From Rhodocyclaceae bacterium (GTDB taxonomy: Bacteria; Pseudomonadota; Gammaproteobacteria; Burkholderiales; Rhodocyclaceae), in NCBI GenBank assembly GCA_905339315.1, contig CAJPFL010000036.1, forward strand, positions 1-36,312: 36,312 nucleotides of DNA. Reading direction: 5' to 3'. The position numbers were made by a program, and so were the translations under genes. Of this stretch, positions 31,926 to 35,429 are shown piece after piece. Every line of letters begins with the position of its first letter. Position 1 is the first letter of the stretch. The notes under the pieces were generated by a model. It ran no database searches, was not told the origin of the DNA, and saw nothing but the letters and a program-made list of their open reading frames with translations.

Positions 31926-31982
31926 CGTTTTTGCCATTTTCGCACGGGGATCGGCCCCGTGCCGATTCAGACTGGCTTATCC

Positions 31983-32924
31983 ATGTTTGGTTTCCTGAAG
32001 AAGTCCGAGAGCCCCGCTGGGGCACGCCCCTCCTGGAGCGAGCGCCTCAAGGCCGGCCTCTCGCGCACGCGCGCCCAGCTCGGCGGCCTGTTCGGCCGCC
32101 GCATCGACGAGGAGATGCTGGAGGAACTGGAAACCACCCTGCTCATGGCCGACGTCGGCGTCGAGGCGACGCAATACCTGCTCGATGAGCTGAAAGCCGC
32201 CGTCGGGCGCGGGAAGCTGGAAACGGGCGAGCAGCTTCAGCGCGCCCTGGGCGACATCCTGCTGAAACTGCTTGCGCCGCTGGAGCAGCCGCTCGACGTT
32301 TCCGCGCACAGGCCCTTCATCATCATGATCGCCGGCGTGAACGGCTCGGGCAAGACGACTTCCATCGGCAAGCTGGCAAAGCACTTCCAGGCCCAGGGCA
32401 AGTCCGTCCTGCTCGCCGCCGGCGACACCTTCCGTGCCGCCGCACGCGAGCAGCTGGCGGTGTGGGGAGAGCGGAATGGCATTGCCGTCATCGCCCAGGA
32501 ATCGGGCGACGCCGCTGCCGTCATCTACGACGCAGTGAATGCCGCCAGGGCGCGCGGCGTCGACGTGGTGCTGGCGGACACCGCCGGCCGTCTGCCAACC
32601 CAGCTGCACCTGATGGAGGAAATCGCCAAGGTCAGGCGCGTCATCGCCAAGGCCGAGCCGACGGCGCCGCACGAGGTGCTGCTGGTGCTGGACGCCAACA
32701 TCGGCCAGAACGCGCTCGCGCAAGTCAAGGCCTTCGATGCGGCCATCGGCGTCACCGGCCTCGTCGTCACCAAGCTGGACGGCACCGCCAAGGGCGGCGT
32801 CATCGCCGCCATTGCACGACAGCAACCGAAGCCCTTGCGCTTCATCGGCGTCGGCGAAGGCATCGACGACCTCCAGCCTTTCTCGGCACGCGAATTCGTC
32901 GACGCGCTCTTCGGCAAGGCATGA
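31983..32924 (+). CDS. ftsY: Signal recognition particle receptor FtsY
   Basis: SRP-type GTPase at the inner membrane that receives ribosome-nascent chain complexes. It has 313 residues. The N domain is helical (RIDEEMLEELETTLLMADVGV). The G domain has G1 GVNGSGKTTSIGKLA, DTFRAAAREQL, G3 DTAGRLPTQ, G4 TKLDGTAKGG and the closing GVGEGIDDLQPF. The long acidic A domain of E. coli FtsY (497 residues) is absent; only about 25 residues with a basic MFGFLKK start precede the N domain. The stop codon overlaps the ftsE start (ATGA). Confidence 0.98.
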   Translation: MFGFLKKSESPAGARPSWSERLKAGLSRTRAQLGGLFGRRIDEEMLEELETTLLMADVGVEATQYLLDELKAAVGRGKLETGEQLQRALGDILLKLLAPLEQPLDVSAHRPFIIMIAGVNGSGKTTSIGKLAKHFQAQGKSVLLAAGDTFRAAAREQLAVWGERNGIAVIAQESGDAAAVIYDAVNAARARGVDVVLADTAGRLPTQLHLMEEIAKVRRVIAKAEPTAPHEVLLVLDANIGQNALAQVKAFDAAIGVTGLVVTKLDGTAKGGVIAAIARQQPKPLRFIGVGEGIDDLQPFSAREFVDALFGKA

Positions 32925-33574
32925 TCCATTTCGACCAGGTCGGCAAACGCTTCCCGGGCGGCATAGCCGCCCTGGCGGATCTGACTTTCACCGTCGAGTC
33001 CGGCGAGATGGTAATCCTCTCCGGCCACTCCGGCGCCGGCAAGAGCACATTGCTCAAGCTCATCCCCGCCATCGAGCGGCCGACGCAGGGTTCGGTTGTC
33101 GTCAACGGCCAGAATGTCGCCGCACTCAAGCGCGCCGCCGTGCCGTATCTGCGCCGCAACCTCGGCATGATCTTTCAGGACCAGAAGCTGCTCTACGACC
33201 GCAGCGCCTTCGACAACGTCGCGCTGCCGCTGGCCATCGCCGGCGTGGCCGTGCGCGATGCCGGCCGGCGCGTGCGCGCCGCCCTCGACAAGGTCGGCCT
33301 GCTCGACCGCGAGAAGGCGATGCCGGTGGCGCTCTCCGGCGGCGAGCAGCAGCGCCTGGCCATCGCCCGTGCGGTGGTGGCGCGGCCGGCGATTCTCATC
33401 GCCGACGAACCGACCGCCCATCTCGACGACGACACCGCGCGCGACATCGCCGCGATGTTCCATGCCTTCAACCAGGTCGGCGTCACGGTGCTGGTGGCCA
33501 CCCACCACGAAGCCCTGTTCGCACCCTACATGACCCGGCGCATCACGCTCTCGCACGGGAGGCTGCTGCCATGA
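32921..33574 (+). CDS. ftsE: Cell division ATP-binding protein FtsE
   Basis: ABC ATPase of 217 residues that with FtsX controls peptidoglycan amidases at the septum. Walker A is SGHSGAGKST, the Q-loop is MIFQDQKLL, the signature is LSGGEQQR, Walker B is ILIADEPTAHLD, and the switch His is in VATHH. The D-loop reads TAHLD where most FtsE proteins have TGNLD. The gene overlaps ftsY at its start and ftsX at its end, both as ATGA, so the three are translationally coupled. Confidence 0.97.
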   Translation: MIHFDQVGKRFPGGIAALADLTFTVESGEMVILSGHSGAGKSTLLKLIPAIERPTQGSVVVNGQNVAALKRAAVPYLRRNLGMIFQDQKLLYDRSAFDNVALPLAIAGVAVRDAGRRVRAALDKVGLLDREKAMPVALSGGEQQRLAIARAVVARPAILIADEPTAHLDDDTARDIAAMFHAFNQVGVTVLVATHHEALFAPYMTRRITLSHGRLLP

Positions 33575-34467
33575 AGGGCTGGCTGCTGCATCACAAGCAA
33601 GCTTCATCCCAGGCACTGCGTCGCCTGGCCGGCACGCCACTCAACACCCTGCTCGGCGCCCTGGTGCTCGGCATCGCCCTGGCCCTGCCCGCCGCTGGAG
33701 AGATGCTGCTCGCCAATTTCCTGCGCCTGGCGCAGCGCGTCGCCGCCAAGCCGCAGATCTCCGTGTTCATGGCGCTCGATGCGGCGAAAGTGGAGGTCGC
33801 CGAGATCGAGTCGCTGCTCAGGAAGCATCCGCAGACGCGCGAGGTGCGCCTGGTGCAGCGCGAGGACACGCTGAAACGATTCAAGGAAAGCGAAGGCCTG
33901 GCCGAAGTGCTCGAAAGCCTGCCGCGCAACCCGTTCCCCGACGCTTTCGTCGTCGTGCCGCGCGACGAATCGCCCGCGGGACTGGAGGCGATGCGCGCCG
34001 ATTTCGCGAAATACCGGCGCGTCGAGCACGTGCAGCTGGATTCCGCCTGGGTCAAGAAACTCGATGCCCTGCTCCGGCTGGCCCGTCTGGCAGTCACCCT
34101 TCTGGCGGCAGTGCTTGGCGTAGCCCTGGTCGCCGTCACATTCAACACCATCCGCCTGCAGATCCTGACGCAGCAGGAAGAGATCGAAGTCAGCCGCCTG
34201 CTCGGCGCCACCGACGCCTTCATCCGCCGACCTTTTTATTATTTTGGCGCCCTGCAGGGACTGGCCGGCGGCCTGGTGGCCTGGAGCACCGTCCTCATTG
34301 CCACGCTTCTGCTGCGCGGGCCGGTTGCGGATCTGGCTGCCCTCTATGGCATCGAGTTCGCACTGCACATCCTGCCGCTTGCCGATTCCGTCGTGCTGTT
34401 CGGTCTGGCCGCCTTGTTGGGCTGGGCAGGAGCCTGGCTTTCCCTTACCCGCCACCTTCGAAACTGA
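33571..34467 (+). CDS. ftsX: Cell division protein FtsX
   Basis: Integral inner-membrane partner of FtsE, 298 residues. There are four hydrophobic segments: about 25-45, 170-192, 222-248 and 270-292. A periplasmic domain between the first two contains ISVFMALDAAKVEVAEIESLLRKHPQTREV and the family pattern LPRNPFPDAFVV. The cytosolic loop EEIEVSRLLGATDAFIRRPF is the conserved FtsX coupling motif. The ATG overlaps the ftsE stop codon. No T-run terminator follows; the inverted repeat at 34490-34506 lies between it and rpoH. Confidence 0.97.
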   Translation: MKGWLLHHKQASSQALRRLAGTPLNTLLGALVLGIALALPAAGEMLLANFLRLAQRVAAKPQISVFMALDAAKVEVAEIESLLRKHPQTREVRLVQREDTLKRFKESEGLAEVLESLPRNPFPDAFVVVPRDESPAGLEAMRADFAKYRRVEHVQLDSAWVKKLDALLRLARLAVTLLAAVLGVALVAVTFNTIRLQILTQQEEIEVSRLLGATDAFIRRPFYYFGALQGLAGGLVAWSTVLIATLLLRGPVADLAALYGIEFALHILPLADSVVLFGLAALLGWAGAWLSLTRHLRN

Positions 34468-34489
34468 TTATTCAAGGTAAATCAATGCG

Positions 34490-34506
34490 TTGAAGAACGT
34501 CTTCAA
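34490..34506. repeat. Inverted repeat between ftsX and rpoH
   Basis: TTGAAGA (34490-34496) and TCTTCAA (34500-34506) are perfect complements around ACG, 22 bases after the ftsX stop codon and 18 bases before the CIRCE element. No T-run follows on the plus strand. It may be a second operator or a weak hairpin. Confidence 0.4.
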
Positions 34507-34524
34507 GGGGAACTTTCCACTCCA

Positions 34525-34551
34525 TTAGCACTCTCTTACTTAGAGTGCTAA
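34525..34551 (+). promoter_or_regulatory. CIRCE operator (HrcA site) upstream of rpoH
   Basis: TTAGCACTC (34525-34533), nine spacer bases and GAGTGCTAA (34543-34551) are a perfect match to the CIRCE consensus in both arms. HrcA binds this element and represses heat-shock genes until it is inactivated by stress or lack of GroEL (known). Here the right arm runs into the -10 of the predicted rpoH promoter, so bound HrcA should block RNA polymerase. Confidence 0.96.
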
Positions 34552-34554
34552 AAT
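34525..34554 (+). promoter_or_regulatory. Predicted rpoH promoter overlapping CIRCE
   Basis: TGCTAAAAT (34546-34554) is an extended -10. TTAGCA (34525-34530) stands 18 bases upstream as a moderate -35. Transcription would start near 34561, almost on the ribosome site GGAGGTGA (34561-34568), giving a leader of only about 14 bases. A different upstream promoter cannot be excluded. Confidence 0.5.
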
Positions 34555-34574
34555 GATCATGGAGGTGAAATCTT

Positions 34575-35429
34575 ATGACGCATGCTCTCAAACTGCCGGT
34601 CCCCTTAGCCGTTGGCAATCTGGAAAGCTATATCCAGGCAGCCAACCGTTTCCCGCTGCTCACTGAAACAGAGGAAGTCGATCTGGCGCGGCGGTTTCGC
34701 CGGGATGGCGACCTCGAGGCGGCGCGCGGATTGGTACTGTCGCATCTGCGGCTGGTGGTATCGGTGGCGCGCGGCTATCTGGGCTACGGCCTGCCCCACG
34801 CCGACCTGATCCAGGAAGGCAACGTCGGCCTGATGAAGGCCGTCAAGCGCTACGATCCCGAGCGCGGCGTCAGGCTGGTGTCGTTCGCCATCCACTGGAT
34901 CAAGGCGGAGATACACGAATACATCCTGCGCAACTGGCGCCTGGTGAAGATCGCCACCACCAAGGCACAACGGAAGCTGTTCTTCAACCTGCGCAGCATG
35001 AAGCAGGGCCTGAACACCATGAGCGGCGAGGAAGTCGGCGCCATGGCGAAGCAGCTCGGCGTGAAGCCCGAGGAAGTGCGCGAGATGGAAACGCGCCTGT
35101 CCGGCCGCGACATCGCCATGGAGAGCGGTACCGAGGACGAGGAAGAAACCTACGCGCCGATCGCCTACCTGGCCGATCCGGCCGAAGAGCCTTCCGAAGC
35201 GCTGGCCAACCGCGAAATGGAACGCCTGCAGGACGAGGGCCTGAAGCAGGCCTTGGCGAATCTCGACGCGCGCAGCCGCCGCATCATCGAGCGGCGCTGG
35301 CTGGCCGAGGGTGAGGCGGCGACGCTGCATGAACTGGCCGAGGAGTATGGCGTGTCCGCGGAGCGCATACGCCAGATCGAGGCCAAGGCCATGCAAAGAA
35401 TGAAGGGGATGCTGGCACACGCCGCCTGA
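34575..35429 (+). CDS. rpoH: Heat-shock sigma factor RpoH (sigma-32)
   Basis: Alternative sigma factor for chaperone and protease genes, 284 residues. Region 2 contains HLRLVVSVARGYLGYGLPHADLIQEGNVGLMKAVKRYDPERGVRLVSFAIHWIKAEIHEYI. The RpoH box QRKLFFNLR, which separates it from other group 3 sigma factors and from RpoD, is present. Region 4 ends with the helix-turn-helix TLHELAEEYGVSAERIRQIEAKAM. The start has a near-perfect GGAGGTGA. The CIRCE element upstream indicates HrcA control in addition to the usual post-translational control of sigma-32 by chaperones and FtsH. A strong terminator follows. Confidence 0.98.
   Translation: MTHALKLPVPLAVGNLESYIQAANRFPLLTETEEVDLARRFRRDGDLEAARGLVLSHLRLVVSVARGYLGYGLPHADLIQEGNVGLMKAVKRYDPERGVRLVSFAIHWIKAEIHEYILRNWRLVKIATTKAQRKLFFNLRSMKQGLNTMSGEEVGAMAKQLGVKPEEVREMETRLSGRDIAMESGTEDEEETYAPIAYLADPAEEPSEALANREMERLQDEGLKQALANLDARSRRIIERRWLAEGEAATLHELAEEYGVSAERIRQIEAKAMQRMKGMLAHAA

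Follow-up and report, generated by a model that had tools for sequence, protein, structure and literature searches.

A putative HrcA operator interleaved with Sigma-E-type and Sigma-70-type promoters in front of rpoH in a Rhodocyclaceae bacterium and its relatives

The gene encoding the heat-shock factor Sigma-32 (rpoH) is preceded in a Rhodocyclaceae bacterium by a perfect CIRCE, i.e. the operator of the repressor HrcA, and a CIRCE at this place is the normal state both in the genomes sampled from the order and in those genomes of the class sample that have hrcA. Judged from its sequence and surroundings, the element is likely to be a functional HrcA operator within the rpoH core promoter, interleaved with one promoter of the Sigma-E type and one of the Sigma-70 type, and two stress-sensing systems probably meet at the rpoH switch.

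The CIRCE and its genomic context

The stretch of DNA that was analysed (the window, 36,312 nt) carries the gene order ftsY-ftsE-ftsX-rpoH (31959-35429), which is the same in E. coli K-12, and Pfam describes the upstream neighbours, in order, as an SRP54-type GTPase, an ABC ATPase and FtsX. An earlier note on this DNA had named the downstream gene rpoH, which a profile search bears out (TIGR02392, 409 bits versus a cut-off of 323); the nearest of 80 loci from named genomes is that of Rhodocyclaceae bacterium isolate SB9, whose RpoH is 90% identical. Between the ftsX stop (34467) and the rpoH start codon (ATG at 34575) lies the CIRCE TTAGCACTC-TCTTACTTA-GAGTGCTAA (34525-34551; Table 1), the end of which is 23 nt away from the ATG. 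The two nine-base arms and the nine-base spacer are as the earlier note had described them, with 0/18 arm mismatches. The note had let the element run from 34525 to 34554, and this holds for the operator as far as 34551; the last three bases (AAT) are not part of the operator and instead complete the extended -10 sequence TGCTAAAAT. The element is the sole match with at most three mismatches in the whole window, and since none of 100 dinucleotide shuffles yielded a CIRCE, a chance palindrome can be ruled out.

Table 1. Features in front of and including rpoH, in coordinates of the window.
Feature	Position	Strand	Basis
GGAACTT, containing the Sigma-E (RpoE)-type -35 GAACTT (34510-34515)	34509..34515	+	sequence; fixed distance to CIRCE in relatives
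16-nt spacer from Sigma-E-type -35 to -10	34516..34531	+	same length in 20 of 23 rpoE motifs of relatives and in E. coli rpoH
TCTCT, Sigma-E-type -10; TC shared with the end of the CIRCE left arm	34532..34536	+	
CIRCE left arm TTAGCACTC; TTAGCA (34525-34530) doubles as a weak putative Sigma-70 -35	34525..34533	+	
CIRCE spacer TCTTACTTA, varies among relatives	34534..34542	+	
CIRCE right arm GAGTGCTAA	34543..34551	+	
TGCTAAAAT, putative extended -10 formed by right arm plus AAT	34546..34554	+	
GGAGGTG, ribosome-binding site	34561..34567	+	by sequence
rpoH, Sigma-32, 284 aa	34575..35429	+	TIGR02392

The genome-wide checks for hrcA and for other CIRCEs that the earlier note had called for gave a positive answer in both cases. 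The source genome encodes HrcA (C235:302-1300, 331.5 bits, above the cut-off) in a reading frame that is open along its full length, and it contains one further CIRCE (at most three mismatches), upstream of groES-groEL. As the assembly is only 77% complete (299 contigs), the genome may hold more of these elements.

Conservation and association with hrcA

Among 60 genomes of the order (source included), rpoH was recovered in 56 and hrcA in 59, and a CIRCE with at most four mismatches precedes rpoH in 55 of the 56. The one exception, G054, is also alone among the 60 in lacking hrcA, and no CIRCE with two or fewer mismatches occurs anywhere in its sequence. Two incomplete assemblies (G013 and G041, 81% and 68% complete) contain hrcA and have neither a CIRCE nor an rpoH match. 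Addition of the 80 loci from named genomes, with one duplicate dropped, brought the collection to 135 distinct rpoH upstream regions. A CIRCE is found in 131 of these, perfect in 81 cases and with one, two or four mismatches in 35, 14 and 1 cases, respectively, so that a single-genome oddity can be discarded, the more so because the element is likewise common in the class sample. The three remaining regions without the element belong to one Nitrosovibrio and two Nitrosospira genomes (L158, L163 and L183), all of which possess hrcA and have one perfect CIRCE elsewhere. In L183 a degraded half-site, TTAGCGCTC, is still visible in the rpoH promoter.

Such losses in hrcA-positive genomes indicate that the rpoH CIRCE is not essential, and the copy in the source genome could accordingly be an ancestral relic devoid of present function. 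We hold this to be very improbable, as all 18 arm positions are intact in the source, the arms are preserved to within two mismatches in 130 of the 135 regions while spacers and flanks drift among the relatives, and the hrcA gene itself is uninterrupted.

The class was represented by an even draw of 185 genomes (source included), most of them from different families, of which 170 have rpoH and 131 have hrcA. The comparison was made on 149 rpoH upstream regions from 148 genomes, excluding the source and leaving out 21 genomes with weaker rpoH matches. Two genomes have two rpoH matches each: G241 (L311, L360), whose two rpoH genes were entered as two rows, and G096 (L337), for which one of the two matches was included. 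In G241 one copy is preceded by a degraded CIRCE (three to four mismatches) and the other copy by none.

Among the 115 hrcA-positive rows, a CIRCE with at most two mismatches is present in 101, one with three to four mismatches in 6, and none within four mismatches in 8, whereas the 34 hrcA-negative rows divide into 7, 1 and 26. The association is highly significant by Fisher's test, without correction for kinship (p = 2e-13 for all rows and 3e-16 when the hrcA-negative genomes are restricted to those at least 90% complete, where a CIRCE occurs in 2 of 28). Seven genomes combine a CIRCE with the lack of an hrcA match, and five of these are less than 90% complete. Given that both hrcA-positive genomes without the element and hrcA-negative genomes with it occur, the link is imperfect and control of rpoH by HrcA must be dispensable. 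In one genome without an hrcA match (G141, L313), a Sigma-E-like rpoH promoter contains the left half-site TTGGCACTC but no longer a right arm, as if the latter had decayed once hrcA was lost.

The counts for the order (131/135) and for the hrcA-positive rows of the class (101/115) supply the frequency that the earlier note had left open. Because nearly all relatives examined share the placement, and because its occurrence tracks hrcA in the class sample, the proposal in that note that HrcA stands above rpoH is likely to be right, although the note had missed a second promoter, of the Sigma-E type, at the same place (see below).

The distribution also bears on the possibility that the palindrome acts mainly as a hairpin in the 5' leader of the rpoH mRNA, where it would influence how stable the message is or how well it is translated; transcription would then begin further upstream, e.g. 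by read-through from ftsEX. The arms are able to pair in RNA, and the position of rpoH directly behind ftsX makes read-through possible. Nevertheless, such a role does not account for the fact that the presence of the CIRCE follows that of hrcA, nor for the -10-like NAT tail behind the right arm. Moreover, no Rfam family scores above its gathering score in 34400-34900, and an RNA beginning at 34540, and hence including the right arm but not the left, shows no folding advantage over its shuffles (z 0.08). We therefore regard a primary role as an RNA hairpin as highly unlikely.

Promoter elements that overlap the operator

In line with the claim of the earlier note that the CIRCE merges with a -10 element just before rpoH, a promoter scan of 34300-34700 returned a single Sigma-70-type site, which spans 34525-34554 (TTAGCA-18 nt-TAAAAT, 9/12 matches, with TG; shuffle mean 0.2) and includes TGCTAAAAT. 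Among 132 rpoH CIRCEs (one duplicate included), 129 are followed by T at the third base and 120 by A at the second. The resulting AT tail occurs at 116 of 131 rpoH sites versus 1 of 34 groES sites, and is found both in short leaders (88/96) and in long ones (28/35).

The pattern of arm decay among the 131 order-level rpoH sites is more equivocal. In 31 of them the left arm has a changed third base, and in 30 the change is A to G, which gives TTGGCA and brings the sequence nearer to TTGACA, whereas the mirror position in the right arm is altered in three. Such a difference would be predicted if a -10 element had to be maintained in the right arm. The outermost base, however, is altered more often in the right arm (17) than in the left (10), which is not expected in that case, and the decay of the arms is thus not uniformly favourable to a -10 function of the right arm.

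The second putative promoter has the form GAACTT-N16-TCTCT and overlaps the CIRCE. GAACTT is the -35 motif of RpoE-type sigma factors; in this promoter it sits 9 nt ahead of the CIRCE, and the -10, made up of the final TC of the left arm and the first bases of the spacer, follows 16 nt on. When the upstream regions of the relatives were aligned on the CIRCE, GGAACTT appeared at a fixed place. The first base of GAAC lies exactly 15 or 16 nt ahead of the CIRCE at 73 of 131 order-level and 67 of 108 class-level rpoH sites, whereas the remaining positions of the upstream 60 nt average 0.71 (order) and 0.75 (class) occurrences each. The fixed GAAC is a property of short leaders in particular: it is present in 66 of 96 leaders of at most 80 nt versus 7 of 35 longer ones (absent in 30/96 and 28/35, respectively; order level). 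A strict Sigma-E pattern, blind to forms such as GAACTC and GAAACTT, was matched by 68 of the 135 order-level regions, where 3.5 were expected from mononucleotide shuffling.

The regions upstream of the rpoE genes of the relatives provide a further view of the motif. A Sigma-E-type motif clear of the start codon was found in 23 of 30 (0.5 expected), with a spacing of exactly 16 nt in 20 of the 23; as the search demanded TC-n-n-A/T at 15-18 nt, all that can be learned here is how many hits there are and which spacing they prefer. Nine of 32 motifs overran the start codon and were left out as not credible, and three upstream regions had no other. Within the 20 motifs with a 16-nt spacing, the -10 begins with TCT in 15 and has T as its fifth base in 18. 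The TCTCT of the source differs at two of five bases from the TCTGA of E. coli and fits the TCTNT of the relatives' rpoE promoters, and its congeners have TCTAT or TCTAC at the same position in 10 of 13 cases. An alternative -10 in the source, TCTTA at 18 nt, was picked by the strict pattern, whereas the congeners favour 16 nt. For rpoE itself no match above the cut-off was obtained in the 77%-complete source genome, while 14 of 15 congeners gave one.

A Sigma-E-type -10 at this place is also supported by the third base of the CIRCE spacer, which is A at 41 of the 62 order-level rpoH sites with GAAC at -15 and at 51 of 58 such sites in the class sample, as opposed to 3 of 34 groES CIRCEs. A looser distinction from groES based on A or T at this base was rejected, as 27 of the 34 groES spacers also have A or T there.

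Variations on the arrangement were also seen. In several Burkholderiaceae (L187, L193, L197, L201 and similar loci) the rpoH leader exceeds 100 nt and the Sigma-E-type promoter lies just upstream of the CIRCE rather than across it. Cupriavidus and a few other Burkholderiaceae with longer leaders have a promoter of the type GAACTA-N16-TCCAA directly upstream of the CIRCE, and several Oxalobacteraceae have CTAT some 20-25 nt upstream of it in place of GAACTT.

A simpler account would be that the HrcA operator covers a Sigma-70 promoter alone, with GAACTT as a bystander. It would be in agreement with TGCTAAAAT and its conserved NAT tail, with the skew between TTGGCA in the left arm (30/131) and changes at the right-arm mirror position (3/131), and with the persistence of the CIRCE at the 58 of 131 sites that have no fixed GAAC. 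Against it stand the constant distance of GAAC from the CIRCE at over half of the sites (62 order-level sites at -15 alone, versus a mean of 0.71 elsewhere), the presence of the same motif in front of rpoE genes, and the fact that GAACTT and TCTTA outlast the CIRCE in the three Nitrosospira-type genomes that have lost it from rpoH, where GAACTT-N16/17-TCTTA is retained. We consider a bystander role for GAACTT unlikely, and an operator shared by both promoter types the probable arrangement.

The groES CIRCEs of the same genomes, 34 of which were recognised out of 36 candidates among the matches listed, represent the same operator and presumably bind the same repressor. Unlike the rpoH elements, they lie directly behind a Sigma-32-type promoter (CTTGAAA...CCCCTAT in 33 of 34; loose pattern, without shuffle control) and the AT tail is exceptional. 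GAAC occurs 10-20 nt upstream in one of the 34, namely in the source genome, where it reads GAACAA and stands at another distance. The groES spacer is itself conserved and often reads GTTAGCAAT, which places a third TTAGCA half-site within the operator (34 sites; L002:1501-1527, L090-L124); such a half-site was not seen in the spacers of the rpoH CIRCEs.

Relation to known systems and proposed circuit

Parts of the arrangement are known already, i.e. a CIRCE on rpoH in Geobacter and the link from Sigma-E to rpoH in E. coli, Bordetella (in vitro) and Shewanella. The E. coli rpoH promoter P3 is Sigma-E dependent. In the E. coli K-12 sequence record, GAACTT-N16-TCTGA precedes rpoH downstream of ftsX, which supports the Sigma-E reading of the window, but there is no CIRCE-like site (the best candidate has 8/18 mismatches), and in the profile search of this control genome rpoE was matched and hrcA was not. 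Permina and Gelfand (2003) are the likeliest to have noted CIRCEs at rpoH in beta- and gammaproteobacteria, and because they may have done so we claim no priority for the CIRCE part. The listings of full-text searches, the coverage of which did not include that study, contained no paper on the Sigma-E/CIRCE composite at rpoH or on its class-wide spread.

For Geobacter sulfurreducens a CIRCE upstream of rpoH was predicted in 2004 (PMC545781, Table 8). It is a perfect element with the identical consensus at -51 from the start codon (the element described here starts at -50), and a second one precedes groESL (PMC545781). The case differs in that it concerns one deltaproteobacterium, in which a CIRCE is also found at hrcA-grpE-dnaK-dnaJ, and the accessible part of the paper does not describe a Sigma-E element (PMC545781). 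Regarding Sigma-E, rpoH is a known RpoE target in E. coli (PMC5493296), and in Shewanella it has been reported to be regulated by RpoE from the promoter GAACTT-N16-TCTAT, the -10 of which is close to the TCTCT of the source (PMC4336711). In Bordetella bronchiseptica SigE transcribes the fam (rpoH) promoter in vitro, so that a betaproteobacterial rpoH promoter is recognised by an RpoE-type sigma factor (PMC3490749); this paper mentions neither HrcA nor CIRCE, and HrcA is likewise absent from the accessible text of PMC2194791. As for the repressor, GroE aids the binding of HrcA in other bacteria and titration of GroE relieves HrcA, and in Helicobacter HrcA sites are situated near or over -35 and -10 elements (PMC6032397).

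A circuit can be proposed on this basis. Both Sigma-E and Sigma-70 would drive rpoH, with predicted starts a few nt past TCTNA/T (Sigma-E) and about 7 nt past TGCTAANAT. With GroE keeping it active, HrcA would lie over both -10 elements and deny RNA polymerase access, and because the Sigma-E-type -35/-10 pair is interleaved with the operator it would block at least two promoters at once. When misfolded protein occupies GroE, HrcA would be released and rpoH transcribed from the basal promoter, whereas envelope stress would bring additional transcription from the Sigma-E promoter. Sigma-32 would then activate groES-groEL, which has its own CIRCE. With a Sigma-32-type promoter immediately ahead of that CIRCE, HrcA would restrain groE both directly and via Sigma-32, and the circuit as a whole would be a coherent feed-forward loop closed by GroE.

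A broader reading, to which we give neither more nor less credence than to its negation, is that the Sigma-E promoter combined with an HrcA operator was the ancestral rpoH switch of the Gammaproteobacteria sensu lato (beta included). The folding capacity sensed by GroE and HrcA would then gate both Sigma-E-dependent and basal transcription of the Sigma-32 gene, and lineages without hrcA, like E. coli, would have kept a bare P3 as what is left of the switch and control Sigma-32 through translation and proteolysis instead.

What textbooks say about Sigma-32 control derives from E. coli, an organism without HrcA. If, in the class, most genomes with hrcA place rpoH under HrcA, then the synthesis of Sigma-32 would be set transcriptionally by GroE capacity, and the repressor-type and sigma-type systems of the heat-shock response would be joined in a single loop instead of running side by side as two regulons. 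The comparison suggests that the arrangement in E. coli could derive from a promoter with two inputs by loss of the repressor.
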